Below, piece after piece: positions 21,356 through 46,349 of a stretch of 64,000 nt of DNA. Every line of letters begins with the position of its first letter. The first letter of the stretch is position 1. The notes under the pieces are model-generated. The model worked only from the letters and a program-made list of their open reading frames with translations. It was not told the origin of the DNA and ran no database searches. The position numbers were made by a program, and so were the translations under genes. This DNA comes from Gemmatimonadota bacterium (lineage in GTDB: Bacteria > Latescibacterota > UBA2968 > UBA8231): positions 110,977 to 174,976 of the forward strand of contig JABJJN010000008.1 of NCBI GenBank assembly GCA_018660835.1, read 5' to 3'.

Positions 21356-22465
21356 GTGATGACGATCGATTTCTCTGATCTACATCGGCGCGTCTGTTTC
21401 GGCGAAGCAGAAGGGCGCATCATCTGGCAGCCGCGTATTCTCGCCTGGTTCACGGACCGAGACTTCGCCGGCGTGCCATTGCCCGCTCCGTACACAGGTA
21501 TGTCGCCTTACGAAGTGTATCGTGAGTTAGGCTGTTCTGCCCGACTCTACGAATACAACGCCTGTTTTCGCCGTACAGAGGATGCTCGCGTGCGGGTTTC
21601 CACCGAGCAGGTTGGAGATCTTACTCACACGACGATCGAGACACCCGTGGGTAGCCAACTTCGCGTGACGCGCAGCACGCCCAACAGTTGGCATCCGATC
21701 ACTCAAAAGTGGGAGGTGACCCATGCCGACGAATTGCGTGCTGCGACGTGGCGGGAGGAGCATTGCACCTGGCACTGGGACGAAGCGTGTTATCAACGCC
21801 TGTTAGGCGAAGTCGGAGACTTAGGCGCCCCAACCACCTTCATGCCGCGCATGAATATTGAGTCACTCTATCTCGAAAAGATGGGTGTCGAAAGTGCCAT
21901 CTATGCACTATACGACGACACCGACGCGGTAGAAGCCTTCTTCGCCGCCCTCGAAAGATCCCATGATCGCCTCCTCGACGTCATCTGTGCCTGCCCTGTG
22001 GAGATTGTCAACTTTGGTGAGAACGTCCACGCAGGTACCCTCTCCCCCGATCTGTTCGAACGATATCATCTGCCCGCCTGCCAGCGCCGCTGTGCACGTC
22101 TGCACGAAGCGGGCAAGTTCGTGTGCTCCCATTGGGACGGAGACACTGGGCCACTGCTGCCCTACGTTCGCCAGACAGGGCTCGACGGCATTGAGGCCAT
22201 CACGCCGCAACCCCAGGGCGATGTCACATTGCAACAGGCGCGCGAAGCGCTCGGCGACGAGATGTATCTGCTCGACGGAATCCCCGCCGTCTACTTCGAT
22301 GACACATACGGGATCGACGTATTGGAAGCCTGCGTACACGAGATCATCGAACTCTTCGCACCAAATCTGGTGCTCGGGATCTCCGATGAAATCTCATCGA
22401 CAGGTGATCTGGAGAGGGTGCGTCGTGTCGGTGAGATCGTCGATGACTACAACGCACATCTCTAA
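21356..22465 (+). CDS. URO-D superfamily protein A (HxDG class)
   Basis: First of 17 URO-D-type genes. A 369-residue (beta/alpha)8 barrel of the uroporphyrinogen decarboxylase/MtaA/CmuA superfamily. The strand where MtaA carries its zinc H-x-C reads CSHWDGD here, so the cysteine is replaced by Asp. Other family blocks: YLEKMGVESAIYALYDDTDAV, LSPDLFERYHLPACQRRC and LVLGISDEIS. It is not HemE: the N-terminal arginine motif that binds porphyrin carboxylates is absent. GTG (21356) and ATG (21359) are both possible starts. Only 18 bases separate its end from convergent gene B. Confidence 0.75.
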   Translation: MMTIDFSDLHRRVCFGEAEGRIIWQPRILAWFTDRDFAGVPLPAPYTGMSPYEVYRELGCSARLYEYNACFRRTEDARVRVSTEQVGDLTHTTIETPVGSQLRVTRSTPNSWHPITQKWEVTHADELRAATWREEHCTWHWDEACYQRLLGEVGDLGAPTTFMPRMNIESLYLEKMGVESAIYALYDDTDAVEAFFAALERSHDRLLDVICACPVEIVNFGENVHAGTLSPDLFERYHLPACQRRCARLHEAGKFVCSHWDGDTGPLLPYVRQTGLDGIEAITPQPQGDVTLQQAREALGDEMYLLDGIPAVYFDDTYGIDVLEACVHEIIELFAPNLVLGISDEISSTGDLERVRRVGEIVDDYNAHL

Positions 22466-22483
22466 ACCTTCACCGACACTCAG

Positions 22484-23545
22484 TTACTCGTAGCTCCCAC
22501 ACTCGGCAAGCGTACGAAGAGCCAATTGATAGTTGCTCAGCGACACGTCGCTTGGCACGGAGTGATCGGTGTGGAACAGGTATCCAGCGGCCCCCTCCTT
22601 GCCGGCGGCCACTTTCGTCCGCACCTCCTCGACAACATCCTCTTCGCTACCTGCCAGTTTGGTCGCATCAATGCCGCCAAACAGAGCCAGATGATCACCG
22701 TATTCGGTGCGCAGAGCCCCCACATCGAGGCCTGCTTTGGCTTCCAGCGGGTGTAGTCCAGTAAAGCCCGCCTGCAGGAAATCTGGAATCAGAGGTCGTA
22801 CGTCGCCATCTGAGTGCAAGATGATAGGTAAACCATCTGCGGCGAAGTGCTCACAGACGCGACGGTGATGTGGCATCACTTGTTCGCGGTACATGGCTGG
22901 AGAAATCAGTGGCGCCGTTCGATAACCCAGATCATCCGCCAGGAAGACACCATCAAACTCGAAGCCCGCCGCCTTCATCCCATCATACAGATCGATGATC
23001 AACTGCGCATGTTGGGCCATCATGTCTCCAGGCCATTCTGGTTCCTGGATCATGGCCATCAGCATCGTCTCAAGGCCAATCCTGTGCCATGTGGGATGAA
23101 ATGAAGCATGCGCCGAAAAGGCGACGAACTGGTCTTTTTCTCGCGCCCGTCGGTAGCCATCCAGTGTGGGCAAGCGCAGCGAGTTGTAGGTCAACCGGTC
23201 ACGGTGTTTCCGCCAGGCATCCGCTGAGTCGATGGTGAATTCGAGCCAATGAGGCGTCCAGTCGTCACCGATGGCGATCACCTTGCGTGTCGCCCCATCA
23301 CCATCGACGTAGATGCGATATCGGTCTGTCTCTTCTATGGTGTGTTCGGGGAATTGCAGGGAATAGTCACCACCGATACGAGCCATTTCACAACCGAAGT
23401 GCTCACCGAGATCAACATCCGCGGGAAGACCTTCGCGGCGCCAACGAATCTCCGTGGAACGCCAGAACGCGTCCTGGTACGGCACCCTATCATGTGGCAG
23501 CCCTCCCAGAGCACATCGGATGCGCTCCCGTGATGTCATACTCAT
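22484..23545 (-). CDS. URO-D superfamily protein B (HxDG class)
   Basis: A 353-residue URO-D-type barrel. It has the usual start MTSRERIRCALGGLPHDRVP, then FDGVFLADDLGYRTAPLISP, the signature ILHSDGD (HxDG, no zinc cysteine), LHPLEAKAGLDV, LFGGID and LFHTDHSVPSDV. The HxDG form is common in uncharacterised URO-D proteins of catabolic clusters; methyl transfer to or from a corrinoid is the known chemistry of nearby groups but is not shown for this class. Third gene of a leftward operon D-C-B, 19 bases after C. Confidence 0.85.
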   Translation of the reverse strand: MSMTSRERIRCALGGLPHDRVPYQDAFWRSTEIRWRREGLPADVDLGEHFGCEMARIGGDYSLQFPEHTIEETDRYRIYVDGDGATRKVIAIGDDWTPHWLEFTIDSADAWRKHRDRLTYNSLRLPTLDGYRRAREKDQFVAFSAHASFHPTWHRIGLETMLMAMIQEPEWPGDMMAQHAQLIIDLYDGMKAAGFEFDGVFLADDLGYRTAPLISPAMYREQVMPHHRRVCEHFAADGLPIILHSDGDVRPLIPDFLQAGFTGLHPLEAKAGLDVGALRTEYGDHLALFGGIDATKLAGSEEDVVEEVRTKVAAGKEGAAGYLFHTDHSVPSDVSLSNYQLALRTLAECGSYE

Positions 23546-23564
23546 GTGCCATCCTCCATGCGGA

Positions 23565-24713
23565 TCAAGAATAGTGGTCCCTCAGACGATCAAACTCGTC
23601 GAGGAAAGCCAGGAAATTGTCGTATTTGGTACCAAAGGCGACTGAGTGCGATGGACCGAGGATGAAGCCGCCGCCGGGTGCACCACGCTCCATCGCGGTG
23701 CGTACAGCGGCGCGGGTCTCAGCGGTGGTTCCGGCGATGAGCACCTCCACTGGTACGCCTCCCCAGAAACACAATGTCTCTCCGTAGTTTTGCTTGAGCA
23801 GACCGACCTCCATGCCCGCCGTCGTTTGCAGCGACTGGTAACAGTCGACGCCGGCATCGATGAACATGTCCATCAGTGGCATGTTATTGCCACAGTTGTG
23901 AAAGATGATCTGTTGGACGCCCGATTCTCTGACATGCTGCATTCGAGCCTTGAGATACGGATAGCTCAGTTCGCGGAACATGTCCGGTGACACGAGGGGC
24001 CCATTGCTGCCAGCCGTATCCTGTTCCATCAGCACACCTGCAGCACCTGGCCGAATGCAGTGTGCATCAAGGGCGTTCTGACGCGCCACGGACTGCCGAT
24101 TGGCGGCAGCGATCACCTCTGGCTGCAGGGCGTGCAGCACCAGCCCCTCCTCAGTGCCCCCCAGCAAGGTCAGCGCCGTGATCCCCCCCGTTGAAGATGC
24201 CACGTAGCGTTCGTCGCCGAGTTCAGCGATGACGTGATCGAGGACCTCGAACATGCTGGCGTCGGGAGGTTCAGGTGGCGTGTCGTCGGCAAAATCCTCC
24301 ACCGACCAGTTTCGCTCGCCCACGGTCGGATCGTAGACACACCGTATCTCGTTGGCACTCCGTGATGCCTGATAGACACGACCTCGTTCGTCCTCCCAGC
24401 GATCGTCGCCGATGGCCCGTGGACGCAGCGGTTCATAGTCGACGGGCGGCAGGAGCATAGCCTCCTTGGGCAGCAACAGGTCGGCACAGTCCATCAGGCG
24501 GTAGAAGTCGACCACATCTGCCTTTAGACCTGCAGCCAATTCGTTTCGACGTCCCTCCCAAAGGGCAATCTGACTCTCCACTTTGTCACGCACGAAGGTA
24601 GAGCGCCCCAATACGCGCCCCACCGTATCGCAGTCGACGGCATAGAAACCCAGTGGTACTCGGTCCACGGGCTGGCGATTGATGGCAGCGCTAACGCGTT
24701 GCTTCGAGTTCAT
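23565..24713 (-). CDS. URO-D superfamily protein C (HxCG class)
   Basis: A 382-residue URO-D-type barrel starting MNSKQRVSAAINRQPVDRVPLG. The signature strand is IIFHNCGNN, keeping the H-x-C pair that binds zinc in MtaA/MtbA, followed by YQSLQTTAGMEV, LCFWGGVPVE and GGGFILGPSHSV. The third MtaA cysteine is not present at the last strand (GPSH instead). The frame continues to 24764 but the start at 24713 fits the family. Second gene of the D-C-B operon, only 5 bases after D. Confidence 0.87.
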   Translation of the reverse strand: MNSKQRVSAAINRQPVDRVPLGFYAVDCDTVGRVLGRSTFVRDKVESQIALWEGRRNELAAGLKADVVDFYRLMDCADLLLPKEAMLLPPVDYEPLRPRAIGDDRWEDERGRVYQASRSANEIRCVYDPTVGERNWSVEDFADDTPPEPPDASMFEVLDHVIAELGDERYVASSTGGITALTLLGGTEEGLVLHALQPEVIAAANRQSVARQNALDAHCIRPGAAGVLMEQDTAGSNGPLVSPDMFRELSYPYLKARMQHVRESGVQQIIFHNCGNNMPLMDMFIDAGVDCYQSLQTTAGMEVGLLKQNYGETLCFWGGVPVEVLIAGTTAETRAAVRTAMERGAPGGGFILGPSHSVAFGTKYDNFLAFLDEFDRLRDHYS

Positions 24714-24718
24714 GGGTG

Positions 24719-25933
24719 TCAGATGAACACCTCGTCGATCACCTGCCTGCACATGGCCACCCATTGGCGCACTCGCTGCGGGTCTCCTTCCACCGTCTCT
24801 ACATCCTTCAGCGTGATGTCAACGAAGTTGTCCCTGCAAGCCATCAAATCCTGGCGCAGGAGCTGCCTTACCCGCTCGTGATCGAGACCGTAGCCAACCA
24901 TGTCCGTCGGACTCGGGCGATAACTGAATACGTAGTCTCGCCCGATCTGTTGCGCGCAGCGTTCGACGTCAGCAAAGGGTGAAACAGCGATGCGGCGTAG
25001 ATTTGGAATCTGCCGTAGCATCGTGATCTTATCGGTCAGATCTTCGCAACAACCGTAGGCGACGAGACCGAACTGCTGCATGATGGGCAGTTGGTGTTGC
25101 AGCAGGAACTCCTCATGCATCTGGGGTGACACACCGGTAAACTCCTGGGCGGCGGTGAAACACCACAGTTGGCTTCGACTCACCCCATGCTGATTGGCCA
25201 CGGGATCGTCGAGCTCTTCTGCATAGGCCATCGCCTGGTTGTAGTGCGAGGTCAGCCCCAGATCGCCCTCTTCCTCGGCCTGCCGTTGTGCGCGCTGTAC
25301 TCCTTCTGACATGAAACCGAGCAGGTCGTGCAACCATTGTGGTCGATCGATCATGTCGACCATGAAGTGCTCAATCCCACGCAGGTATCCCAGGTCGGTG
25401 GACAGATCCGCTGACCACGTCCAATACGCAGGACCGCGATCGACATCGACATCGATCAGATCACCCAGACATTCCTGCACACGAGCCAGATTCTCCGCCG
25501 TGCGTGTCTCGTCAATCTCGTGTCGCGGTGGGAGAAGCTTCCCCATGTCTGCCGGATCTCTGATCGGATAGTCGACCTTGAACGAGCCATGGAGATCATT
25601 CGTACGTTGGCGCTCGAGTGGCACACCCCAACCACTGCACACGTGCTGGGCCCGAACCGTCACCCAAGGCTCGAAGACTGAATCGTCACCGAGCCGGTCC
25701 CAGAACAGGTGGCGACGGAAGAAATCCTCCATCTGGCGCCACAATGGATCCTGACAACGCGGTTGGCTATCGGGCATTTCGTGCCAGGCGAAAGCGCGGA
25801 TATAGATCGGTGGCCGCGTCTGTCGCAGGCTGTTGTGCCGCCGCCACAGTTGCCGTCGCTGCGCCTGTTCAGGACGCCGACATATGTCGACGTAGCGTCG
25901 TGCCAGATCGCGTATGTAGGTGCGTTCCTGCAA
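24719..25933 (-). CDS. URO-D superfamily protein D (TTG start)
   Basis: A 404-residue divergent URO-D-like protein. I place the start at a TTG (25931-25933): GGAGGT lies four bases upstream, and the resulting N-terminus (QERTYIRDLARRYVDI, then RRQLWRRHNSL) matches a known subgroup of long URO-D-like proteins. Two ATGs further up (26056, 26035) would add a tail that overlaps the divergent spacer. The signature strand reads YGCCEDL in place of HxCG, and the end has SPFADVERCAQQIG and VFSYRPSP. First gene of the leftward operon D-C-B. Confidence 0.75.
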   Translation of the reverse strand: MQERTYIRDLARRYVDICRRPEQAQRRQLWRRHNSLRQTRPPIYIRAFAWHEMPDSQPRCQDPLWRQMEDFFRRHLFWDRLGDDSVFEPWVTVRAQHVCSGWGVPLERQRTNDLHGSFKVDYPIRDPADMGKLLPPRHEIDETRTAENLARVQECLGDLIDVDVDRGPAYWTWSADLSTDLGYLRGIEHFMVDMIDRPQWLHDLLGFMSEGVQRAQRQAEEEGDLGLTSHYNQAMAYAEELDDPVANQHGVSRSQLWCFTAAQEFTGVSPQMHEEFLLQHQLPIMQQFGLVAYGCCEDLTDKITMLRQIPNLRRIAVSPFADVERCAQQIGRDYVFSYRPSPTDMVGYGLDHERVRQLLRQDLMACRDNFVDITLKDVETVEGDPQRVRQWVAMCRQVIDEVFI

Positions 25934-25937
25934 TACT

Positions 25938-25943
25938 ACCTCC
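25938..25943 (-). promoter_or_regulatory. Ribosome-binding site that fixes the TTG start of gene D
   Basis: GGAGGT on the minus strand, four bases before the TTG codon. No comparable site precedes the upstream ATG codons. Confidence 0.6.
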
Positions 25944-25959
25944 GTGCGAGGGTCTTCTG

Positions 25960-25974
25960 ATGTAACCTGACCAA
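25960..25974. promoter_or_regulatory. 15-base motif shared with the spacer before gene Q (copy 1)
   Basis: ATGTAACCTGACCAA on the plus strand, 27 bases before gene D's start. A 14/15 match, ATGTAACATGACCAA, lies at 46395-46409, 46 bases before gene Q. Both are in divergent spacers upstream of leftward URO-D operons, 20 kb apart. Confidence 0.4.
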
Positions 25975-26083
25975 CCTGACCCCATTTGGGAAACGGCCCC
26001 TTGCTCAACAGACGGCACCTCGGTATGGTGACCATGACGACCCGAGTTGGTTGCACTTCCTCTTAGCTGTGGAACTGGTCACC

Positions 26084-27301
26084 ATGAATTCCCGTGAACG
26101 CGTCCGCAAGATTCTGAACTTCGAGGAGGCTGATCGACCCGCGATCGATCTGGGTGCTACCCGGATGACGGGTACGGTGGCGTGGACCTATGAGGCCCTG
26201 AAACGAGCACTAGGCATCGACGAGGGACAGACGCGGGTCTTCGATCTGTTCCAGATGCTGGCTGAAGTCGAGGAGCCAGTACTCGATGCCCTGGGTTGCG
26301 ACTTTGCCATGGTGCCCGCAGATACGATGAACTATGGACTCACCCGCAACGGCTGGAAGGAATTTACCTTCTGGGGCGATCAGACCTTCCACGTACCAGC
26401 GGGTTTCCATCCGCAATCGACCGAGGACGGATCGCTGCTGGTGGGTGAGGGTCCCGAATGGACCGAAGCGGTAGCGCGTATGCCCGAAGGAGGCCGGTAT
26501 TTCGACGCACTTCATGTCGCCAATCTCACAGACACCTTCGAAGTACCACACATGGACGAGAAACAGTGGGCTCTACCGGGCCCTCTTGACGCCGACTTCC
26601 TCGAGCGTGAACGCGTCAAGATCAAGGCACTCTACGAATCCACAAGTCGTGCACTCGTGGTCACGCCTCCCTTCAGCCTTCCAGGTGGCTATGGCGGATT
26701 ATACCAGTGGGGGATGAAAATGGCCTTGGATCCGGTCCACTGCGAGCAATACATGCTGGCGCAGTGTGAGGCCAACGCCAGCAGGGCGCGACAATATCTG
26801 AGTGCAGTAGGCAAATATGTCGATGTCCTCGTTCTGAGCGGTGCTGACTACGGCACGCAGGACCGCGAAGTCTTCAGACCATCACTCTTCGGTGACATCA
26901 TCGCACCGGCTTGGAAGCTGGTGTGTGATGCAGTGCACGAGTTTCCCGACGTGAAGGTGTGGATCCACAGCTGCGGCTCCATTCCGGACTTGATCGGCTA
27001 TATCGCTGATGCGGGCGTCGACTGCCTCAACCCGGTCCAATGGGGTGCTGCAGGCATGGATCGACACTGGATGAAAGAGACCTACGGAGACCGTTTGGTC
27101 TTCTGGGGTGGCGGCATTAACACGCAGAACACCTTCCCCTTCGGCACCGAGGCCGATGTACGCCGTGAGGCCCAGGAGTGCCTGGAGATTTTTGCCCCCG
27201 GTGGCGGTTGCGTCGTCAATCCGATTCACAACATTCAGGCCGATGTGCCGATCGAAAATATCGTGGCACTCTACGAAACGGCACGGGCCTATCGCTACTA
27301 A
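26084..27301 (+). CDS. URO-D superfamily protein E (HxCG class)
   Basis: A 405-residue URO-D-type barrel starting MNSRERVRKILNFEEADRPAID. Family blocks: LVVTPPFSLPGGYGG, VLVLSGADYGTQ, the signature VWIHSCGSIPDLI (HxCG), LNPVQWGAAGMD, LVFWGGGINTQ and GGGCVVNPIHNIQADVP. A cysteine does occur near the last strand (GGGC) but out of register with MtaA. It heads a rightward operon with a glycosyltransferase (27 bases later) and a propeller protein, which links this copy to glycan metabolism by position. The 150 bp spacer to gene D must hold both promoters. Confidence 0.87.
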   Translation: MNSRERVRKILNFEEADRPAIDLGATRMTGTVAWTYEALKRALGIDEGQTRVFDLFQMLAEVEEPVLDALGCDFAMVPADTMNYGLTRNGWKEFTFWGDQTFHVPAGFHPQSTEDGSLLVGEGPEWTEAVARMPEGGRYFDALHVANLTDTFEVPHMDEKQWALPGPLDADFLERERVKIKALYESTSRALVVTPPFSLPGGYGGLYQWGMKMALDPVHCEQYMLAQCEANASRARQYLSAVGKYVDVLVLSGADYGTQDREVFRPSLFGDIIAPAWKLVCDAVHEFPDVKVWIHSCGSIPDLIGYIADAGVDCLNPVQWGAAGMDRHWMKETYGDRLVFWGGGINTQNTFPFGTEADVRREAQECLEIFAPGGGCVVNPIHNIQADVPIENIVALYETARAYRY

Positions 27302-27328
27302 ACCAACCCGTCGCCTGAAGGATGATCT

Positions 27329-28414
27329 GTGAACGTCCTGTTCTTCTGGGAACCGGTCGGTGGTCTCAGTCTCGAGCATCGCTGCAACCCCTACGCTGGA
27401 CTCCTTGACCACGCCTTACACGCCCACGACATCCATCTCGAGTTGGGTGACTATGGTATGTCGCCGGCGTGGCTCGAGGCGCAACGGTCAACCCATGACG
27501 TTCTACACCTCAACTGGTTACATCTGTTCTACCGACGCGACGACCTGGCGGCGACGGTAGCAGCCTTCCATGACTTCGCCGAGAGCATCCACGTTGCCCA
27601 CCGGTTGGGGTATCGTATCGTGTGGACCCTGCACAATCTTTATCCCCATGAGCGCCCCTTCCCGCAGATCGATCACATGGCCCGACTGCTGGTGGCCGAT
27701 CACGCGGATATCGTGCTCGCTCACTGTGAACATGCGGCTGCTTTGGCGCGAAAACACTTCTACTGTCGGGATGTACGAGTCGTGCCACACGGGAACTTCA
27801 TCGACGTATTCCGCAACGATCTGCCCCAGGCAGAGGCCCGGGCACGCCTCGATCTGGATAGCGACGATTTCGTCTATCTATTCTTCGGCAATGCACGTGG
27901 TTACAAGTCGATCGAAACGCTGATCGACGCGTTTGTCAGCCTGCAAGCTGACGATGCAGTGCTGGGCCTGATGATGCGCAATGCCTTCGACCCCTCCTAC
28001 GGGCAGCAACTGGCCGATCATGCTGGCAACAGTGGCGGGCGTATTCGCATCTGGACCTCCGAGTTCTTCGCCAACGACGACTTTCAGCTCTATCTCAACA
28101 GTGCGGATGTCGTCGTGCTTCCCTTCGCCGAAGTACTGACGTCAGGCTCGGCGATCACAGCCCTTGGTTTTGGCCGACCGGTCATCGCGCCGGCTCTAGG
28201 CTGCCTGCCAGAGCTCATCGGCGACACGGCGGGCATCATCTACGACCCGGCCATTGCCGATGCATTGCCACGTGCAATGGAAACGATCCGGCGACGTGAT
28301 CTCACCAGCCTTGGTGCCGCTGCTCGAGCTCGCGCCGAGTCGTTGGACTGGGCAGGGATCGCGACGCACATCGTCGCTGCCTACCGCGGCGATGAGATCT
28401 CGATGGCGCCATGA
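27329..28414 (+). CDS. GT4-type glycosyltransferase
   Basis: A 361-residue GT-B fold protein. Its N-terminal half has HLNWLHLFYR, IVWTLHNLYPHE and VVPHGNFIDVF; the C-terminal nucleotide-sugar half has FLYFFGNARGYKSIE-like VYLFFGNARGYK, DVVVLPFAEVLTSGSA and PVIAPALGCLPELI, the family 4 donor-binding block. It likely adds a sugar to a lipid or polysaccharide at the cytoplasmic face. GTG start with AAGGATGAT upstream. Its stop overlaps the next start (ATGA), so the two are translationally coupled. Confidence 0.85.
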   Translation: MNVLFFWEPVGGLSLEHRCNPYAGLLDHALHAHDIHLELGDYGMSPAWLEAQRSTHDVLHLNWLHLFYRRDDLAATVAAFHDFAESIHVAHRLGYRIVWTLHNLYPHERPFPQIDHMARLLVADHADIVLAHCEHAAALARKHFYCRDVRVVPHGNFIDVFRNDLPQAEARARLDLDSDDFVYLFFGNARGYKSIETLIDAFVSLQADDAVLGLMMRNAFDPSYGQQLADHAGNSGGRIRIWTSEFFANDDFQLYLNSADVVVLPFAEVLTSGSAITALGFGRPVIAPALGCLPELIGDTAGIIYDPAIADALPRAMETIRRRDLTSLGAAARARAESLDWAGIATHIVAAYRGDEISMAP

Positions 28415-29493
28415 CCCAGCACACCTTCACTCGGCATGGTGCCCTGCTCACCCCTGTTCCCAACATGGTCGGCCCCGGTCCATACTACTGCTGTCTCGTG
28501 GACATGAAGCAGGTGCCTGATTTTGCCGGTGACTACGCCTTGTATTTCTCCACCGATCACGACAGCGGTGCAGGTGGGATCTGGCTTTATGTCTGTAATG
28601 GGTCACCGACGGATCCGGCCGCCTGGAGATCATTTGATGCGGCCCTCGCGGCGGGAGACTTCCATCACCTGGGAGCGGGTCCGCAGGCGAATCCCATCTT
28701 CGTCGACCCCATTCAGGGAACCGGGCACACCGAGACGCCCCATGTAAATGTCATTGATGGCACCGTCTACATGACGTATCACAAGAATGGCATCGAAGAC
28801 ACGCAGCGAACCCTGCTGGCTACATCTACCGACGGTGTCTGTTTTTCGCGCATTCAGGGTGAGGATGATTCCGTGATCCTGCGTTATCAGCCCGGCGACA
28901 GACCTGGCAATGGCCACACAGGCTACTTCCGCTGGGCTCGCAACCGGTTTACCGCCATCCCGCACAAGTATGTCGGCTATTCGCTACACGGCGGTGGTGA
29001 TGACTACCACTCGGCGATCTGGGCCTCCGACGATGCGATCAACTGGCAGGAGTTGGATGTGCTCAAGCCCATCGAGGGCCATGCGATGCCCGACCAGAAC
29101 ATGATGCTGATCTGGCACGATATAGACCCCGGATCCGTCACCCCCCTCGGCAACGGCGAATATGTCGCCGTGTGTGGTGGTGGCAACAGAGCCTCGGGCG
29201 ATGTCTCTCGGGTCGTTGAGCTCTACGAGATCTTTCTGGCGGAAGATGGCCGCACACTGACACGACAGAGCCGTAGGATTCTGGGAACCAGACCCGGCGA
29301 CGATGACGCCGAAGAGTTGTCGTCACCGACCAGCCTTGTTGTGGACGGAACCCAGCATCTGATCTACGTCGGCGCGAAGGATCGGGGTACAGTGAACACC
29401 GTCATGGGCGCGTCGGGTGTCTTCGATGTCCAGGCTCCCGTCAGTGTACCGCTACCTGCTGCCCAGCGTGCACGCCATGTGGTGTGTCAGTGA
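28411..29493 (+). CDS. Five-bladed propeller protein, GH43/GH32-like
   Basis: A 360-residue protein of repeated beta-rich blades typical of the GH43/GH32/DUF-type glycosidase propellers: YALYFSTDHDSGAGGIWLYV, GHTETPHVNVIDGTVYMTYHKN, TLLATSTDGVCF, HSAIWASDDAINWQEL and VVDGTQHLIYVGAKD. The order of blades suggests glycan binding or cleavage, but I cannot point to the three catalytic acids with confidence. No signal peptide, so it is likely cytoplasmic. Its ATG overlaps the glycosyltransferase stop; it converges with gene F 43 bases later. Confidence 0.65.
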   Translation: MTQHTFTRHGALLTPVPNMVGPGPYYCCLVDMKQVPDFAGDYALYFSTDHDSGAGGIWLYVCNGSPTDPAAWRSFDAALAAGDFHHLGAGPQANPIFVDPIQGTGHTETPHVNVIDGTVYMTYHKNGIEDTQRTLLATSTDGVCFSRIQGEDDSVILRYQPGDRPGNGHTGYFRWARNRFTAIPHKYVGYSLHGGGDDYHSAIWASDDAINWQELDVLKPIEGHAMPDQNMMLIWHDIDPGSVTPLGNGEYVAVCGGGNRASGDVSRVVELYEIFLAEDGRTLTRQSRRILGTRPGDDDAEELSSPTSLVVDGTQHLIYVGAKDRGTVNTVMGASGVFDVQAPVSVPLPAAQRARHVVCQ

Positions 29494-29536
29494 CTGCCGT
29501 TCAGTGCCTGGTCCCTGTCTGCCGCCTGACACAAGC

Positions 29537-30703: not shown

Positions 30704-30821
30704 GCTGTGCTCCTCCATTCCCTACAACCTACCCTAATTCGTCTCTGAGATGCGAGTACAGGTAGCGCCTTGCCCGGTGTAGGAGATCTCGGTTTGTTGA
30801 CATAAGGAGGTGACGAACATC

Positions 30822-30875: not shown

Positions 30876-30887
30876 GATTTGCAAGAG

Positions 30888-36460: not shown

Positions 36461-36622
36461 GTGGAAGATCTCCTCTGATGGCGTCGCTGACTTGCTGGGC
36501 TATCTGGTTATCTACCCGGATTTTGACATACGGCGCTACCACCTCGGGTCGACAGTGGCAGGACTGGGACCGGTTGCGCATACGTATAGGAGACCCCTTC
36601 GCCATTCTCACCGAGGACCCAG

Positions 36623-38937: not shown

Positions 38938-40000
38938 GCTCAAGCCGGACTTCGAGCAGGTCCTCGATCGCTTCGAAGCCTGGTGGCAAGGTGAGATCGT
39001 CGATCGTCCTCTGGTTGGTTTCAGCTACCCAAAGGACCCGGAAAATCGTGTGTCAGTGCCGGTGTCGACCCATGCCAGCCTGCATGACCGCTGGATGGAC
39101 GCCGACTTCGCCGTGGCCTCAGCAAGTGCGCGGGTGAACAACACGATCTTTGCTGGCGACGCCTTGCCCGTGGCCTATCCAAATCTTGGACCGGAGGTAT
39201 TCTCGGCATTTTACGGCTGCCCATTGGTGTTCACCGAAACGACTTCGTGGAGCGAGCCCGTCCTCGAAGACTGGGACAGCGTCGGCACCTTGTCTCTGGA
39301 TGCAGACAATCAATATCACCGCAAGATTCTGCAGATCACCGATGGACTGCTCGAGATCGGGCGTGATCGATTCCTGGTCGGCTACACCGATCTGCATGGT
39401 GGCGGCGACGCCATCGCCGCGCTGCGTGAGCCGCAACGGCTGTGCATCGACGTTCTCGAGCGACCCGATGATGTACGAGCTCTCGCCGAACGGGTGACCA
39501 CCGACTTCCTGCACACCTACGACCTGTACCACGATAGGCTACAGACTGCCGGCCAGCATTCTATCACCTGGCTGCCGGCAACCTGTCGCGGCCGCATGCA
39601 CGTGCCCTCCAATGATTTCTCCTGCATGATCTCGCAGGAGCTTTTCGAGGACCTCTTCATCCCTGGCATCATCCGCGAGTGCCGGCACATGGACCGCTGT
39701 ATCTACCACCTGGACGGGCCCGATGCACTGCGCTTCCTCGACCTGATCCTGGCAATCCCCGAGATCGATGCAATACAATGGGTACCAGGCGCGGGGCAGG
39801 CCCACTGGTCGAATTGGATCGATGTGTACCACCGCATACAGGCAGCGGGCAAGTCGTTCGTCATCTACCCGGCCGCAGTGGAACTCGACCAGGTCTTTTC
39901 TGTCTTGCGTCCCGAGGGTGTCTGGCTCGCAGTCTCCGGCGTCACCGATCACGACATGGCCCACGGCGTGCTCGACGCGGTGTCTCGATGGACAGCATGA
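38930..40000 (+). CDS. URO-D superfamily protein M (divergent, HLDG)
   Basis: A 356-residue URO-D-like protein. The likely start is a GTG at 38930, eight bases inside gene L; the frame runs back to 38840 but that part only shadows L. The opening ([27 protein letters not shown], with the WWxxEIxDRP block) marks a known divergent subgroup. The signature strand is CIYHLDGPDALRFLD (HxDG). The end lacks the usual GGF/GGG strand. No clear ribosome-binding site, consistent with coupling to L. Confidence 0.75.
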   Translation: MVELKPDFEQVLDRFEAWWQGEIVDRPLVGFSYPKDPENRVSVPVSTHASLHDRWMDADFAVASASARVNNTIFAGDALPVAYPNLGPEVFSAFYGCPLVFTETTSWSEPVLEDWDSVGTLSLDADNQYHRKILQITDGLLEIGRDRFLVGYTDLHGGGDAIAALREPQRLCIDVLERPDDVRALAERVTTDFLHTYDLYHDRLQTAGQHSITWLPATCRGRMHVPSNDFSCMISQELFEDLFIPGIIRECRHMDRCIYHLDGPDALRFLDLILAIPEIDAIQWVPGAGQAHWSNWIDVYHRIQAAGKSFVIYPAAVELDQVFSVLRPEGVWLAVSGVTDHDMAHGVLDAVSRWTA

Positions 40001-40995
40001 ACCATCGGCAACGTCTTCAGGCCATCATCGCCGGTGAGCCTGCAGATCGCTGCGGCTTCTGGCTCGGCAACCCGCACGCCGATACGTGGCCGATCCTCGA
40101 GGGCCACTTCGGTACCGACGATCACGAGCAGATCCTGCAGCAGTTTGATGACGATATGCGATGGATCCGGCCCGGCGCCTACCACCACCCCGAGGCGCGG
40201 CCGATGTTCGACTTTCAGCGCAAGGGTCGCGAACTGGCCGCTGGGGGCGTCTTCGCTGATTGCGACAGTGTCGACGAGGTCGATGCCTTCGACTGGCCGA
40301 ATCCGGACTACCTCGACTTCACCGATACCATCTCCAGCTTACAGACTGCCGGTGATGTCTATCGTCCCAGTGGCTTCTGGTGCCCATTCTTCCACTATGT
40401 CGCTGACTTTTTCGGGATGGAGAACTACTTCGTCAAGATGTACACCCACGCCGACGTCGTGCATGCCGTCACTCGTCACGTCGTCGACTTTCATCTGGAA
40501 GCAAATCGTCGCTTCTTCGCCGTCGCCGGCGATCTGATAGATGCCTACTTCTTCGGCAACGATTTCGGCACCCAGCGCGGTCTGCTCATCAGTCGCCAGA
40601 TGATGGCCGACTTCGTCTTTCCCTACTTCCGCCAGCTCACGGGCCTCGCGCACGAATCCGGCTATCGCGTCATCCTGCACTCCTGCGGCTCCATCTACGA
40701 CGTCATCCCCGATCTCATCGACATGGGCGTCGATGCCCTGCATCCTCTGCAGGCACGCGCCGCCAACATGGAAGCCGAACGCCTCGCGGTGGATTTCGGC
40801 GGCGAGTTGGCTTTTGTGGGAGGGATCGACACGCAGGATCTGCTGGTCAATGGGAAACCGGACGACATCGCCGCCGACGTGAAGCGCGTCAAGCGCCTGC
40901 TCGGACCGCGTCTGATCATCTCACCCAGCCACGAGGCAGTGCTGCCGAATGTGTCGCCTTTGAATCTGCTCGCTATGGCACAGGCGGTTCGCTAA
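39997..40995 (+). CDS. URO-D superfamily protein N (HxCG class)
   Basis: A 332-residue URO-D-type barrel. I use the ATG at 39997, which overlaps M's stop as ATGA and gives MNHRQRLQAIIAGEPADRC; an ATG at 39988 adds three residues. Blocks: IDAYFFGNDFGTQRGLLIS, the signature VILHSCGSIYDVI (HxCG), LHPLQARAANMEAE, LAFVGGIDTQDLL and LIISPSHEAVLPNV. Last gene of K-L-M-N; only 20 bases from convergent gene O. Confidence 0.85.
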   Translation: MNHRQRLQAIIAGEPADRCGFWLGNPHADTWPILEGHFGTDDHEQILQQFDDDMRWIRPGAYHHPEARPMFDFQRKGRELAAGGVFADCDSVDEVDAFDWPNPDYLDFTDTISSLQTAGDVYRPSGFWCPFFHYVADFFGMENYFVKMYTHADVVHAVTRHVVDFHLEANRRFFAVAGDLIDAYFFGNDFGTQRGLLISRQMMADFVFPYFRQLTGLAHESGYRVILHSCGSIYDVIPDLIDMGVDALHPLQARAANMEAERLAVDFGGELAFVGGIDTQDLLVNGKPDDIAADVKRVKRLLGPRLIISPSHEAVLPNVSPLNLLAMAQAVR

Positions 40996-41015
40996 AGGGC
41001 TCCCCTGCTAGCAGA

Positions 41016-42059
41016 TCAGACCGTTGCCTGATGGTCAGGCACGATCTGCACCTGCAGGCACAGGCCACCCGCTGGCTGCAGGCGCTGCAACTGGTCCAGT
41101 TCCGACTGGTACACCGGTCCGGTCACGATCAGCGGCTTGTGGGCCAGGATGCGCCGCAGTTGCGGCATGACCTCGGCTGCCAGTGGGCCGCCGGGGTAAT
41201 CGATGGAGACCTGAATGCAGTCCAGATCCGGCTCCTGCACCAGGTCGTCGATGATGTGCAGACAGCAGGAATGCAGGTGGATGAGGGTGATGTCGAAAGC
41301 CTCAAAGACCTTCCGATCGAAGGGCAGCACACGCTCGCGGTAGGTCTCCGGCGACAGCATCGAAGCGTTATCAACCTGGGTCCTCACGACGGTGCCCGGC
41401 GCCCAGATCCCATAACTGGACAGATATCCATCTTCGAATCTGGGCGTCGCCGCCAGCCTCATCGTCGCCATGTGGTTAAACAGTTCAGCGCACTTGGCCA
41501 GGATCCGGTCCGCTACGTCTGGCGCCGTCTTGACGGCTATACAGGCTTCTTCATGACCCAGACCGGCAAACATCATGTCCACCGGGCCGCGGAACAGAGG
41601 TTGTGTGATCGGGTAGCGGCCGTCGGCACGATCGACGAGATACTCGACGAAAGCGCCAAGCTTGTCGATCCAATCCTGGTCAGGTGCTACCAGGGCCTCA
41701 TCATGCCAATCCTCGACGCAGTCTTCGACCCAGGACTCCGCCCATGGACCGCCGGTGACGATTCGTATCGGACAGCCGAAGGCGGCCTCCGTCCAACACA
41801 TGCCCGGTGGTCCCTCGCCGACCATGAAATCACCGTGGATCACTTCGCGGGTCTGATGGTCGCCGTAGAATCGGGACGGCTCGAGCAATTCGGGTGTGAT
41901 CAGGCACCCATCCACCGATCTGGTCCCATCAGCAAGGGGGATCCCACCGCGCTCCTGTAATGGCTGGTGCGCTGACACCGACATCAGTGGTGTCTCGCCC
42001 TGCCGACGCCAGAACGATTCGTGTCGACTCAGCAGGTCTCGCAGTTCATTGTCGCTCAT
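41016..42059 (-). CDS. URO-D superfamily protein O (divergent, HSCC)
   Basis: A 347-residue URO-D-like protein of the divergent M type: it opens with a helical RHESFWRRQGETPLMSVS and ends without the usual GGG strand. The signature is LIHLHSCCLHIID, an H-x-C pair followed by Cys in place of Gly. Other blocks: GPVDMMFAGLGHEEAC, DNASMLSPETYRERVLPFD and CIQVSIDYPGGP. Its ATG overlaps the TGA of P. Last gene of the leftward operon Q-HyuA-P-O. Confidence 0.75.
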   Translation of the reverse strand: MSDNELRDLLSRHESFWRRQGETPLMSVSAHQPLQERGGIPLADGTRSVDGCLITPELLEPSRFYGDHQTREVIHGDFMVGEGPPGMCWTEAAFGCPIRIVTGGPWAESWVEDCVEDWHDEALVAPDQDWIDKLGAFVEYLVDRADGRYPITQPLFRGPVDMMFAGLGHEEACIAVKTAPDVADRILAKCAELFNHMATMRLAATPRFEDGYLSSYGIWAPGTVVRTQVDNASMLSPETYRERVLPFDRKVFEAFDITLIHLHSCCLHIIDDLVQEPDLDCIQVSIDYPGGPLAAEVMPQLRRILAHKPLIVTGPVYQSELDQLQRLQPAGGLCLQVQIVPDHQATV

Positions 42060-43168
42060 TCTCTTGCCTTCCTGACAACTGAGCCCGCCGCTTGATCCTC
42101 AGGCGCGGCATCGGTGAAGTCGCCGTGTGTCTCGCACGTGCGCTGGTAGGTCGCGAAAGATTCCAGGGGAATTTCCGGGCTGACGGAATGCGTGCCGATG
42201 ATGAATCCTCCGTCACGTCCCAACTCGATAAGCGTTTTTGCCTCGCTCTCGATCTCAGCGGCGCTGCCGAGGGGTAGCGTCTGCGTGTTGCACATGCCCC
42301 CCGTCAGAATGAGTTGCGGATAGCGCCGGCGCAGCTGCTCGGCGATCATTCCCGTCCGGCGTTCAAGTGGATTCAGACCATCGATACCAGCGTCGACGAG
42401 CATGTCGAGAATCGGCAGAATGTTGCCATCAGAATGCAGGACTACGTACCGGGCACCGGCCTCCTTGTAGGCGCGGATCATGCGGCGATACGCCGGCAGC
42501 AACACTCGTTCGAAGCTGTCGGGCGAAAACATGGGGCCGCCATTGTGGGCCATGTCGTCGTAAATCCATACACCGCTGTCGGACAGATCCCAACGTCGGA
42601 GCAACTCAACACCCACGGCGATCAGGTGATCGACCATCTTATCGACCAGGGCCCGTGCCAGACATACGTCGCCGGCCATGTCCATCAGGAACTGTTCGGT
42701 GCCGCGCACGAAACTGGTACGCAGATAGGGTCCACCCGTCTTGCCAAAGACGCAGTAATTGGACTTGTCCGCGGCCAGCTTCGACGCCGTCGCTTGCAGG
42801 TCTCCCCCGTGTATCGCGTAGCGTAGATCGAGACACGGTGCATCGAACACGATATGCTCGGGGTCGCAACCGGGGGGGATCGGCACCTCGAGGACCTCGT
42901 CGAAATACGCCCCATCTCGTGAGCGCACCGTGCGGCCCCAATCATCGACGCGAACCGTCCAATCTCCGCGTCGCTCCAACAGCTTGGCTCGCGTCGGGAA
43001 GGCACCCTCGCGCGGGCACCAGATAGCGATGTCGCTGAGGCTCTCGGGTGGGCCCAACCGGCGTTCCCAAGCAGGGGGCAATTCCCAGAAGCTATCGAAC
43101 CGGGGAATCCTGTCGGGGCGCTCGAAGTGGCAAGCGCGAAGGACACGTTCGTGTGAGGTGATGGACAT
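42056..43168 (-). CDS. URO-D superfamily protein P (HxDG class)
   Basis: A 370-residue URO-D-type barrel opening MSITSHERVLRACHFERPDRIPR. Blocks: VWIYDDMAHNGGPMFSPDSF, the signature VVLHSDGNILPIL (HxDG), LNPLERRTGMIAEQL, LILTGGMCNTQTLP and GGFIIGTHSVSPEIPLES. It is closest in pattern to genes B and J. Sixty-six bases separate it from the HyuA-like gene before it. Confidence 0.87.
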   Translation of the reverse strand: MSITSHERVLRACHFERPDRIPRFDSFWELPPAWERRLGPPESLSDIAIWCPREGAFPTRAKLLERRGDWTVRVDDWGRTVRSRDGAYFDEVLEVPIPPGCDPEHIVFDAPCLDLRYAIHGGDLQATASKLAADKSNYCVFGKTGGPYLRTSFVRGTEQFLMDMAGDVCLARALVDKMVDHLIAVGVELLRRWDLSDSGVWIYDDMAHNGGPMFSPDSFERVLLPAYRRMIRAYKEAGARYVVLHSDGNILPILDMLVDAGIDGLNPLERRTGMIAEQLRRRYPQLILTGGMCNTQTLPLGSAAEIESEAKTLIELGRDGGFIIGTHSVSPEIPLESFATYQRTCETHGDFTDAAPEDQAAGSVVRKARE

Positions 43169-43234
43169 CTTGGCGGCTCCCGGACCTGTTTCTCAATAAT
43201 CCCAGATCGGGCACTGACCGCAACTCGTCCGAGT

Positions 43235-45259
43235 TCATCGACCTGCTGGATTACCAGATCCAAAGACAGGCTTCCCCACAGCGCTGAAGACCAGTTCAGT
43301 CTCGATGAGTGCCACGCCAGCCTGACCCCGCACGGGGGCCGTGATATCCTGTCGCGCAACACGCACTTGCGCATCGTCAGCACCGGCTCGGCCCACGCGC
43401 TCACGCAGATAGACCGTCGCCCGTTCATGCGCCAAAGCGACGCCAGCTTCGAGAGAACGCGTCGCCAGAAGACCGTCAGGCAACAGGACGTGGTAGATGT
43501 TCTCCCGCTCCGTGGGTCGAATCTGCACCCGCAGATGCTGCACCACACCGCCGGCAACGGCACCCACCGCATTGGCCACAGGCGCGTGCGGCGCCACAAC
43601 GAGTTCTGTATTCAGCCGCTCAGCGACACCGGGGCTGTACGCCTCCACAGGGGCACCCACAAAAACCAGGGGCCGGTCCAACTCCAGACGGACGCTGAGA
43701 TCGGATGGGAGATCACCGAAGGCGCGCCCCATCAAGGCCTGCGCCCCCTCCGCCCGTTCCCAACCCGCTTCCTTCCCCTCGTCACACAGCACCTTGGACA
43801 CGACTTCCGTGGCGATACGCTGCGATACGCCTTCGACGACGCATTCACAGAAAGCGTGGGCCGAAAGACCCATCTGTGCCCCAAGGAGTTCGGCACCCAG
43901 GCGCGCCGCCTCCCCATCGTGTGCATCGTAGCGCCCCAACACATGCAGAGCATCGGTGGGTGTGAATCCCGCCCGTACAACACATCGACGACGTTCGAGT
44001 TCTGCGAGACCGGACAGCTGCAGACTCCCATACATCGAAGCCTCGGACATCGCTGCCAGGGACGCGGGCGATGCGCCGATCTCCCCGAGCAGACGGTTTC
44101 CCTGAGCGCTCAGCTGGACATGTTCCCCAGCCAGTCTCACGACAAACTCCGCTACGTGCTGTTCGGCACCCGCACGCTGTTGCCGCCGAAGTTCAGCGAG
44201 CACGCCATCATGCTCTTGTGCCAACAAGGACAGGGGCACCACACGCCGCGGCCCCGTCTGCAGCGCTTCGTGCGCACGACGACGTACATCAATGCGCACA
44301 TGGCTGTCGCCACCGAGGCCGACGGTGTGTACGTGCAGTGCTTCCACCATGGTGCGCCAACCGCCAACTCGAGCTCCCTCACGATTGAGCCGAGGCAGAC
44401 CATCACGTAACACGGCGATATCTGTCGTGGTCCCACCCATGTCGATGACCCAGGCATCGCGCCGGCCCGCCAGATGCCAGGCACCGACGACGCTCGCCGC
44501 CGGCCCCGATAGAATCGTCTCCACCGGTCGTTCGAGGGCAAAGTCAGCCCCTACCATGGAACCGTCCCCCTTCACGACCATGAGTGGCGCCCGTATGCCG
44601 ACTCCCACCAAGGTCTCACGCACCGTCTCCACCAGACCGCTCAGTAGAGGAATGAGGCATGCGTTCAGCGCTGCCGTCGTCGCACGCCGAACCGAATCGA
44701 GTTCAGCCGTCAATTCGCTGGCACAGGTAACGGGCAGATGACCGCCATGCTGCCGGATGATCTCAAGAGCCCGATGCTCGTGTGCAGGATTGCGCACCGA
44801 ATAGTAACCGGAGACGGCAAAGGCCTCGACCTTCCCGCGTCGCTGGCGCACCGCTTCGATGAGTGCTTCTTCATCGAGAGGGGCGACCTCCACGCCGGCG
44901 CCATCGTGACCACCGGCAATGGCGACCACATCCTCGGTCACCAGATGACGCTCGAGGCCGAAGCGACGCAGCAGCTGTACGTCGTAGCCAATCAGAATCA
45001 GACACACAGGGTGCCTGATCCCTTCGACGATGGCATTGGTTGCCAGCGTCGTCGATAGTCCCACCACACCAATTTGATTTGCACTGTCGGCGGGTCCCGC
45101 CGCAAGTACCGACCGAATCGACTCGGAGACACCACCCGCCAGATCGGCGGGTGTCGTCAGCGCCTTGGCGCTGGCGACCATGTTCGCCGCAGGCCAGCTC
45201 ACCAATGCCGCATCGGTATAGGTGCCACCTGCGTCCACACCCAGAGCCAGATCGCTCAT
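43235..45259 (-). CDS. Hydantoinase/oxoprolinase family protein (HyuA-like ASKHA ATPase)
   Basis: A 674-residue protein. The N-terminal Hydant_A_N domain starts LALGVDAGGTYTDA (phosphate-binding loop, residues 5-17), and the hydantoinase A ATPase core has DMGGTTTD near residue 271 and VHTVGLGGDS. Classical HyuA/5-oxoprolinase uses ATP to open cyclic amides, with a HyuB partner; no HyuB is present here. The C-terminal third is like acetophenone-carboxylase/DUF-type tails. Fold kin (ASKHA) also activate corrinoid methyltransferases, which is worth noting given its place between URO-D genes Q and P. Start 45259 fits the family better than 45280. Confidence 0.88.
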   Translation of the reverse strand: MSDLALGVDAGGTYTDAALVSWPAANMVASAKALTTPADLAGGVSESIRSVLAAGPADSANQIGVVGLSTTLATNAIVEGIRHPVCLILIGYDVQLLRRFGLERHLVTEDVVAIAGGHDGAGVEVAPLDEEALIEAVRQRRGKVEAFAVSGYYSVRNPAHEHRALEIIRQHGGHLPVTCASELTAELDSVRRATTAALNACLIPLLSGLVETVRETLVGVGIRAPLMVVKGDGSMVGADFALERPVETILSGPAASVVGAWHLAGRRDAWVIDMGGTTTDIAVLRDGLPRLNREGARVGGWRTMVEALHVHTVGLGGDSHVRIDVRRRAHEALQTGPRRVVPLSLLAQEHDGVLAELRRQQRAGAEQHVAEFVVRLAGEHVQLSAQGNRLLGEIGASPASLAAMSEASMYGSLQLSGLAELERRRCVVRAGFTPTDALHVLGRYDAHDGEAARLGAELLGAQMGLSAHAFCECVVEGVSQRIATEVVSKVLCDEGKEAGWERAEGAQALMGRAFGDLPSDLSVRLELDRPLVFVGAPVEAYSPGVAERLNTELVVAPHAPVANAVGAVAGGVVQHLRVQIRPTERENIYHVLLPDGLLATRSLEAGVALAHERATVYLRERVGRAGADDAQVRVARQDITAPVRGQAGVALIETELVFSAVGKPVFGSGNPAGR

Positions 45260-45272
45260 CGTGATGCCGCCA

Positions 45273-46349
45273 TCAGGCATAGGCCCCGAATTGATTCACG
45301 GCATCATACATGGCCACCACATTCTCCGTCGGTGAGTTGTCCTGCAATTGATGCGTGGGGGCGAAACAGTAACCACCACCGGGCATCATCGTCTCAAGGG
45401 TTTCGCGACAGATCTGTGTTACGTCGGCAGGATCACCTGTCGCCACGGGCCCTGCCGTACTGATACAGCCATGGAAAGCCAGGCCGTGACCATAACGCTC
45501 CTTGAGGAAAGCCGGTGACATGTCCATCGCCTCTGGCTGCAGCGTGTCCACCGCGCCAATCCCCATCTCGATGAAGTCGTCATAGGCCCAGCTACTGGAA
45601 CCACACGTGTGGATCATCACCGGCTTGCCGAATTCGGTCGCCAGATCGACGTAGCGCTGATGTCGAGGACGGATGTGCCGTCGGTAGAGATCGAGGCCGA
45701 TGAGGGGTCCCTTCTGCGTGCCCAGATCCTCGCCGAGCCAGACAAAGTCGATATGGTCTGCCGCCACCTCGAGGCAACGGCGGGTCACGGCCAGTTCGTG
45801 TTCCACCTTGCGATCGACCAGAGCAAGACCGGCGGCATCGTCGGTGATCAGATCGACGAGGACCTGTTCCATCGTGCGGATCATGCCATTGCTATTGATG
45901 ATGTCGCCGAGCCCCGGATTGCCGAGATGGGTGGCGACACCCGTTGCGCGCAGCCGCGCCGCTTGCGAGACCAGCGACGCGTAGTCATAGTCGTCAGCCG
46001 AGGGCGATGGCCACGCGGCGATGGCCGCCTCATCTGCGTCACGCAGAGGAAAGTCGCAGAAGTCCCAGTATCCCCCACTGTCGTGTTCGATCCAACGTGT
46101 CCGCCGCCCCCAGACCGGATCGACACGCCGATCCGTGACCGGCTCGTGCAGACGATCGCCGATGTAGCCTGCCCTCACCTCGCGGAAATCAACACACAGG
46201 CGGCGACGCAAGCCCTCATGGTCATCGGTAGCCAGCCCGAAGTGTGCCTTCAGGCGGGCATCGATCCCCGGATTTGCACTGTAGTTGATCGGCACACGAT
46301 CAGCTTCCTGACGATTCAGCGTCAGCAACACTCGTTCACTGGAATCCAT
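45273..46349 (-). CDS. URO-D superfamily protein Q (HxCG class)
   Basis: A 358-residue URO-D-type barrel opening MDSSERVLLTLNRQEADRVPIN. Blocks: FVWLGEDLGTQKGPLIGLDLY, the signature VMIHTCGSSSWAY (HxCG), VDTLQPEAMDMSP, LAFHGCISTAGPVATG and GGGYCFAPTHQLQDNSP. Similar proteins are often annotated as URO-D or methyltransferase near catabolic genes. First gene of the operon Q-HyuA-P-O, which ends 13 bases before HyuA. A GTG nine bases upstream is an alternative start. Confidence 0.87.
   Translation of the reverse strand: MDSSERVLLTLNRQEADRVPINYSANPGIDARLKAHFGLATDDHEGLRRRLCVDFREVRAGYIGDRLHEPVTDRRVDPVWGRRTRWIEHDSGGYWDFCDFPLRDADEAAIAAWPSPSADDYDYASLVSQAARLRATGVATHLGNPGLGDIINSNGMIRTMEQVLVDLITDDAAGLALVDRKVEHELAVTRRCLEVAADHIDFVWLGEDLGTQKGPLIGLDLYRRHIRPRHQRYVDLATEFGKPVMIHTCGSSSWAYDDFIEMGIGAVDTLQPEAMDMSPAFLKERYGHGLAFHGCISTAGPVATGDPADVTQICRETLETMMPGGGYCFAPTHQLQDNSPTENVVAMYDAVNQFGAYA

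Follow-up and report, generated by a model that had tools for sequence, protein, structure and literature searches.

The 64,000-nucleotide stretch of Latescibacterota DNA analyzed here (the window, from contig JABJJN010000008.1) carries at positions 21356 to 46358 an array of seventeen open reading frames (ORFs), A to Q, fifteen of them firm members of the URO-D superfamily and two of them divergent candidates. We propose, with a probability of roughly 0.6, that this array encodes a bank of corrinoid-dependent first-step methyltransferases (MTI), each acting on a different methylated compound and all served by one shared corrinoid hub encoded elsewhere in the genome. The proposal builds on the gene content of the array, the anatomy of the hub, the co-distribution of both among relatives, and purifying selection on the genes tested. 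The source genome (G000; other genomes, contigs, and loci carry G, C, and L numbers) is a 7.09-Mb draft in 105 contigs with 93% completeness and 8% contamination, and the window lies on contig C4. In the list below, bit scores refer to PF01208 unless another family is named, motifs such as HxD to the position of the zinc ligands in MtaA-like references, and percentages to orthologue identity.

21356..22465, + strand: URO-D A; 33.8 bits; HxD; near hub3-type URO-Ds in the tree, with weak support
22484..23545, - strand: URO-D B; 65.2 bits; HxD; G017 orthologue 58%
23565..24764, - strand: URO-D C; 75.3 bits; HxC; G005 and G009 orthologues 84-85%
24719..26056, - strand: probable URO-D-like D, divergent; overlaps C; no Pfam match; hhalign E 8e-6; zinc position unaligned
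26051..27301, + strand: URO-D E; 54 bits; HxC; G005 orthologue 84%, dN 0.11, dS 1.73
27329..28414, + strand: glycosyltransferase-like ORF, a label from the first reading of the letters with no profile result behind it
28411..29493, + strand: propeller-like ORF; GH43 match of 16.8 bits, below the cut-off
29537..30718, - strand: URO-D F; 39.2 bits; HxC; G003 orthologue 52%
30879..31901, + strand: URO-D G; 209.4 bits; full HxC...C zinc triad; MtaA clade; G005 orthologue 82%
31922..32968, + strand: URO-D H; 52 bits; HxH; orthologues in G005 (87%, 157-residue fragment) and G011 (54%)
32979..34019, - strand: URO-D I; 50.5 bits; CxD; orthologues in G005 (85%) and G003 (48%)
34032..35135, - strand: URO-D J; 128.9 bits; HxD; same unit as the fucosidase, the two also linked in G005; model pTM 0.79
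35132..36460, - strand: alpha-L-fucosidase; PF01120, 296.6 bits; 4-bp overlap with J; G005 orthologue 82%
36623..37897, + strand: URO-D K; 37 bits; DxD
37894..38937, + strand: URO-D L; 42.8 bits; DxD; 4-bp overlap with K
38840..40000, + strand: putative URO-D-like M, divergent; no Pfam match; hhalign E 6e-4; HxD; fold match 4ay8; start uncertain, with 38936 used for part of the analyses, including the profile-profile comparison
39982..40995, + strand: URO-D N; 56.2 bits; HxC; orthologues in G005 and G009 (84%), G017 (58%), and G011 (47%); frame open from 39679, start taken at 39982
41016..42059, - strand: URO-D O, divergent; 22.6 bits, below the cut-off; hhalign E 7e-8; HxH; 4-bp overlap with P
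42056..43168, - strand: URO-D P; 63.4 bits; HxD; G017 orthologue 64%
43235..45280, - strand: HyuA-like ASKHA ATPase (Hydant_A_N and Hydantoinase_A); in a unit with Q; marks the URO-D-rich genomes of its class
45273..46358, - strand: URO-D Q; 46.5 bits; HxC; 8-bp overlap with the HyuA-like gene

Fourteen of the 17 ORFs pass the curated PF01208 cut-off of 23.9 bits, with scores between 33.8 and 209.4 bits; O lies just below it, and a Pfam profile search returned no match for D or M at E ≤ 10. Profile-profile comparison (hhalign) with 14 other array members gave E values of 7e-8 for O (probability 94.6), 8e-6 for D (83.7), and 6e-4 for M (28.6). Fold models cover two of the 17 ORFs, J and M: the 26 best Foldseek ranks for J (pTM 0.79) are all HemE or MtaA structures (E 5.5e-14 to 1.3e-10), and the top PDB match for M, obtained with a weak model (pLDDT 56.9, pTM 0.64), is 4ay8, the MtaA methyltransferase of Methanosarcina mazei (E 2.4e-5, TM 0.54). 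The preliminary description of this DNA had placed all seventeen ORFs in the superfamily, an assignment it held open to doubt should several fail PF01208. Two of the 17 lack a match and one is sub-threshold; the array itself is real, O is recovered by profile-profile comparison, D is a probable member, and M is a tentative one, suggested by the profile-profile comparison and a low-confidence predicted fold.

The whole genome holds 39 PF01208 matches, 38 of them over the cut-off, and since 14 fall within the 25-kb array, chance placement would not produce it. Strand and spacing divide the genes among some eight units (A; D-C-B; E followed by the glycosyltransferase-like and the propeller-like ORF; F; G-H; fucosidase-J-I; K-L-M-N; and Q-HyuA-P-O), and the overlaps between several adjacent genes, mostly of 4 to 46 bp, suggest translational coupling. 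The members are as far apart in sequence as first described: the best pairwise identity inside the array is 32% (C-J), so the members are old paralogues. Recent tandem amplification was rejected, as this best pair contrasts with 81-87% identity between seven members and their orthologues in another genus. In that genus, represented by G005, orthologue identity to the array protein is 81-85% for C, E, G, I, J, and N and, over a 157-residue fragment, 87% for H. Values of dN/dS (NG86) against G005 are about 0.06-0.13 for E, N, I, J, G, and the HyuA-like gene, so these six genes are under purifying selection and decay is rejected for them. Synteny is partly retained in G005, where one contig carries E, C, N, and the HyuA-like gene and another H, I, J, and the fucosidase, which speaks against the array being contamination.

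Profile searches of the genome contigs found no PF02607 (MtaC-like) or RACo match on C4, confirming the absence of an MtaC-like gene beside the array that had been read from the window alone. Elsewhere in G000, PF02607 matches occur in four places: a MetH-size protein, two MtaC-size proteins (on C101 and C66), and a 360-residue frame that matches more weakly; the single RACo match is on C101. The C66 locus, which we call the hub, encodes in transcription order a URO-D, MtaC, DUF1638, an 899-residue Pterin_bind/MTHFR/DUF5981 fusion (MeTr/MTHFR/DUF5981), a second URO-D, and formate-tetrahydrofolate ligase (FTHFS), with a third URO-D close by on the opposite strand. The hub URO-Ds thus have their own MtaC-type corrinoid protein beside them, and the array on C4 has none. 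The C101 locus comprises an MtaA-like URO-D, MtaC, RACo, and a homocysteine S-methyltransferase. Between them, C66 and C101 supply all the genome-level partners of a corrinoid MTI, namely, the corrinoid protein, the MeTr-type second-step methyltransferase (MTII), and the reductive activator. The lower-ligand gene cobT (PF02277) was not found in G000; other cobalamin genes were not searched for. As a side observation, most relatives, even those with one or two URO-D genes, have their MtaC, URO-D, and RACo matches together on a single contig, and the C101 locus is perhaps a separate methyl-sulfur or methionine system.

From what is established about their gene families, C66-type hubs form a route from a methyl donor via a corrinoid and tetrahydrofolate (THF) to formate. 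For catalysis, its direction, substrates, docking, and the part played by the HyuA-like protein, we infer the following scheme. A URO-D enzyme of the array would bind a CH3-O, CH3-N, or CH3-S substrate and pass the methyl group to Co(I) of the MtaC-like protein from C66; the pterin-binding domain of the 899-residue fusion would move it on to THF, and the MTHFR domain would oxidize methyl-THF to methylene-THF, from which formate-THF ligase could recover formate and ATP. Co(I) would be restored by RACo from C101 and possibly also by the HyuA-like ATPase of the array. Methyl transfers of this kind can in principle run in either direction, and the flow might be reversed, with the URO-Ds methylating products such as glycans using methyl groups brought from methyl-THF via MtaC, an idea in keeping with the glycosyltransferase-like ORF inside the array. 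We regard this reversal as very improbable, as the MTHFR and formate-THF ligase of the hub fit oxidation of incoming methyl groups and the neighbors of J (fucosidase, enolase family) are usually catabolic.

TIGR01463 (mtaA_cmuA) was the most-matched NCBIfam model, hitting 17 of 22 proteins (the 17 of the array plus 5 of the hub) at E ≤ 0.01, and the hemE model hit 4 of 22; J falls under every NCBIfam equivalog cut-off listed, and far under that of hemE. The likely HemE of the genome is encoded on contig C84 (PF01208, 353.6 bits), and a role as HemE paralogues of tetrapyrrole synthesis was rejected for most members, given the hemE results. As an aside on HemE, no PF01208 match reaches HemE strength in 17 Latescibacterota genomes of other classes (G072-G088), the best E values ranging from 7.5e-18 to 9.2e-61, and these genomes may lack heme synthesis; most genomes of the source organism's own class reach E 1e-76 or better. 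In a FastTree phylogeny of 136 sequences (139 less 3 dropped for coverage), G is the sole array member among MtaA-like proteins, N and Q cluster (support 0.957) with the hub1 URO-D, whose gene immediately precedes that of the hub MtaC, and the remaining members scatter across several deep groups. The several subgroups noted in the preliminary description are borne out.

At the position corresponding to HxC in MtaA-like references, the array has HxC in C, E, F, G, N, and Q, HxD in A, B, J, M, and P, HxH in H and O, DxD in K and L, and CxD in I, with D unaligned. The third zinc cysteine is found in G alone, so that, G excepted, the array as a whole fails the HxC...C triad that marks the soluble MtaA/MtbA coenzyme M methyltransferases. 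Given its intact zinc site, G is less likely to be an MTI than a thiol methyltransferase of the MtaA-like type. Together with the conserved C101 locus, where a homocysteine S-methyltransferase gene accompanies those for MtaC and an MtaA-like protein, G could be taken to indicate that the bank serves salvage of methyl-sulfur or methyl-selenium compounds and not broad demethylation, a role proposed for type 1 mlp clusters (PMC10418091). We consider this improbable, as the third cysteine is absent from 16 of the 17 members and the mlp criterion, as worded in that source, describes neither the array, with no corrinoid protein or RACo on C4, nor the C66 hub, with its MeTr/MTHFR/FTHFS genes.

Hub relatives were found in five further genomes of the family, G017, G011, G003, G005, and G008 (L016-L020, of which L019 and L020 stop at contig ends). 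G017 and G011 have a fuller hub (URO-D, MtaC, URO-D, DUF1638, RACo, MeTr/MTHFR, URO-D, and FTHFS, the last at the other end and reversed in G011), G003 has a version without the first two URO-Ds, and those of G005 and G008 are cut by contig ends; a simpler hub (URO-D, MtaC, DUF5981, MTHFR, MeTr) occurs in another class, in G087 and G088 (L113, L120). Six of the 24 family genomes (G000-G023) have at least 25 PF01208 matches: G000, G003, G005, G009, G011, and G017, where the counts for G003, G005, G011, and G017 are lower bounds from 39 scored candidates each. A hub MtaC is present in 5 of these 6 and in 1 of the 18 others (G008; Fisher P = 8e-4, kinship ignored), the URO-D-rich exception being G009, which is 76% complete; further MtaC-size matches in G007 and G019 were not counted as hubs because no URO-D is listed on those contigs. 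An orthologue of the HyuA-like protein (54-78% identity) is present in 6 of 6 URO-D-rich and 0 of 18 other family genomes (P = 7e-6, kinship ignored), and at E ≤ 1e-100 it occurs in 6 of the 47 genomes of the class, exactly those with at least 25 URO-D matches. MttB, a further family of corrinoid methyltransferases, was searched for in 24 genomes, 15 of them of this family, with G017 outside the set; it was found in 4 of 5 URO-D-rich family genomes (G000, G003, G005, and G009) and 2 of 10 others (G001 and G014), and the gene adjoins URO-D genes in G000, G005 (C403), and G009 (C72). In G000, we note a trio of URO-D genes beside the MttB-family gene (G000:C61:163102-164466; L005:5064-6488). More widely, among 31 genomes with at least 8 URO-D matches that were checked for PF02607, 24 encode a protein of MtaC size (an open frame of at most 320 amino acids), G004, G009, and G089 carrying the C101 type only, and G081 has a contig-edge PF02607 fragment only.

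The HyuA-like ATPase shows its own association with corrinoid enzymes. In an alignment scan of named genomes, 24 of the best 80 loci have genes for MtaC, MtaA-like URO-D, RACo, DUF1638, MeTr, or S-methyltransferase near the HyuA relative, mainly in methanogens, Syntrophomonadaceae, Halanaerobiales, Desulfosporosinus, and some Chloroflexi, and one locus tested for it (L034) also has MttB. In Methanolobus bombayensis and a Methanosarcinaceae genome, the HyuA-like gene adjoins a predicted URO-D-MtaC fusion of 659-661 residues (L156:455-2434 and L163:106-2091), which naturally unites in one protein the two partners that we propose here. PF01208 was searched in 32 of the 80 named HyuA-bearing genomes; among the ten whose HyuA is closest, six are URO-D-rich (Caldilineae 32, Chloroflexi 41 and 45, Ardenticatenia 31, Armatimonadetes 26, and Latescibacterota 32 matches, three of these counts being lower bounds from 45 scored candidates). 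Hydantoinase genes are described within glycine-betaine methyltransferase clusters (PMC9768040), and two hydantoinases are reported downstream of the mtsF/mtaCB2 region of Methanosarcina acetivorans (PMC11619418). These neighborhoods are consistent with a possible role of the HyuA-like protein in restoring Co(I).

Several results weigh against a shared-hub bank of MTI enzymes. Besides the incomplete zinc triad of 16 of the 17 members, 56 of the best 80 HyuA loci, many of them short and including most of the proteobacterial ones, yielded no corrinoid gene with the query list used, and the other four of the ten genomes with closest outside HyuA have 4, 5, 9, and 11 URO-D matches. Shared ancestry among the relatives makes the Fisher values look stronger than they are, and the MttB search found none in G011, which has many URO-Ds. 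In the 17 Latescibacterota genomes from other classes, URO-D matches number from 1 to at least 27 per genome and no HyuA match reaches E ≤ 1e-100, so this gene is not needed for expansion in general, and we rejected it as an explanation of all URO-D expansion. The PF02607 search found no MtaC-size protein in 6 of the 31 genomes with at least 8 URO-D matches (G035, G073, G076, G078, G083, and G084), and G035, G076, G078, and G083 are 90-99% complete. Finally, MtaC in other classes often lies apart from URO-D genes, beside housekeeping genes, an arrangement that fits a shared protein and equally an unrelated role. Such lone MtaC-like genes were seen in L114, L115, L116, L117, and L122 (URO-D-rich genomes of further Latescibacterota classes and one Chloroflexi genome), with dnaA near that of L115, uvrA near L116, and ruvB near L122.

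The six genomes without an MtaC-size protein, the varied metal-ligand position (HxC 6, HxD 5, DxD 2, HxH 2, CxD 1, unaligned 1), and the enolase-superfamily and aldehyde oxidoreductase genes near J in relatives would suit most array members being corrinoid-independent TIM-barrel enzymes, such as decarboxylase-, lyase-, or aldolase-like enzymes on sugar acids or other acids, with methyl transfer left to the hub URO-Ds and G. We think this unlikely, since the MtaA/CmuA model is matched by 17 of 22 proteins and HemE by 4, N and Q group with a URO-D encoded beside MtaC, and zinc is described as dispensable in CdmB, a characterized URO-D MTI (PMC13222342). The earlier suggestion of a bank sharing partners encoded elsewhere is therefore partly supported: the search for such partners revealed two MtaC-size proteins and an activator in G000 and related hubs in relatives, but 6 of 31 expanded genomes have no MtaC-size protein.

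Genes around the array give few constraints on substrates. Of the genes described as interrupting it, the fucosidase and the HyuA-like ATPase are borne out by Pfam, and the propeller has only the sub-cut-off GH43 match. The window also holds an MlrC-like M81 metallopeptidase (14075-15949), a PhyH-type dioxygenase (17400-18467), and a DUF6785/DUF6784 protein (48825-50900) in the flanks of the array. A Pfam tally of 92 of the 149 listed non-URO-D neighbors of URO-D genes (first 25 of 117 families) was diffuse and pointed to no single substrate class, with PhyH 4, ABC2_membrane_6 3, and fucosidase, pyruvate-formate-lyase-like, sulfatase, and enolase families 2 each. The two pyruvate-formate-lyase-like proteins are glycyl-radical enzymes, and two SelB-type factors are also among the 92. 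For J, the neighborhood is more telling: the G005 gene order is fucosidase, enolase-superfamily enzyme, and J orthologue, with one gene between fucosidase and J, and in G011 the relatives of J and H flank an aldehyde ferredoxin oxidoreductase gene. The fucosidase itself shows no signal peptide on inspection by eye. From the operon of fucosidase, enolase-superfamily enzyme, and J, our guess, for J only, is that the substrate may be O-methyl-fucose or its acid. A bolder version of the bank model, "one hub, many heads," would have dozens of URO-Ds that differ in specificity, the majority encoded apart from any corrinoid protein, docking on one MtaC, with J as an O-methyl-sugar demethylase and the HyuA-like protein as a dedicated corrinoid caretaker; we offer it tentatively and find it doubtful in full.

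Characterized URO-D MTI systems include the O-demethylases OdmB, VdmB, MtvB, and MtoB and the dehalogenating MTIs CdmB, CmuA, and MecC/MecE. The array resembles them in the URO-D barrel, in the presence of an MtaC-type protein and a MeTr-type domain in the same genome, and in that zinc is, by the account of CdmB (PMC13222342), not always needed. However, the published cdmBCA genes and mec cassette, the latter with three URO-D proteins, keep the URO-D genes with their corrinoid protein, whereas here 17 stand together without one. MtaA, MtbA, MtsA, and the type 1 Mlp clusters share with the array the HxC...C triad of G within the MtaA-like group and TIGR01463 as the most-matched model, but the other array members lack the third cysteine and the cluster layout differs. 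Large MttB banks, such as the 82 genes described in "Ca. Formimonas warabiya" (PMC9768040), are similar in holding many paralogous corrinoid methyltransferases per genome but belong to another superfamily, and the HydA/hydantoinase genes of the glycine-betaine methyltransferase clusters described in the same paper likewise place a HyuA-like protein beside corrinoid methyltransferases; in the array, the HyuA-like gene shares its unit with URO-Ds instead. Precedents thus exist for URO-D MTIs, for MtaA-like enzymes, and for large MttB banks, and it is the many-to-one layout of these parts that is unfamiliar. URO-D expansion does recur in the phylum, as had been anticipated as a possible objection, and among open-licence full texts, judged by title and start of abstract, we found no report of Latescibacterota URO-D arrays or of a function assigned to them.

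If the proposal is correct, Latescibacterota and some Chloroflexi, Armatimonadetes, and Poribacteria genomes would hold a large repertoire of demethylating enzymes, organized in a modular layout that splits substrate recognition, by many enzymes, from methyl handling, by one B12 protein. The recurrence of HyuA-like ATPases beside corrinoid enzymes would suggest a testable role for these proteins, and the bank as a whole would let these organisms draw C1 units from methylated natural products that had gone unrecognized as such a source, perhaps methylated sugars among them.

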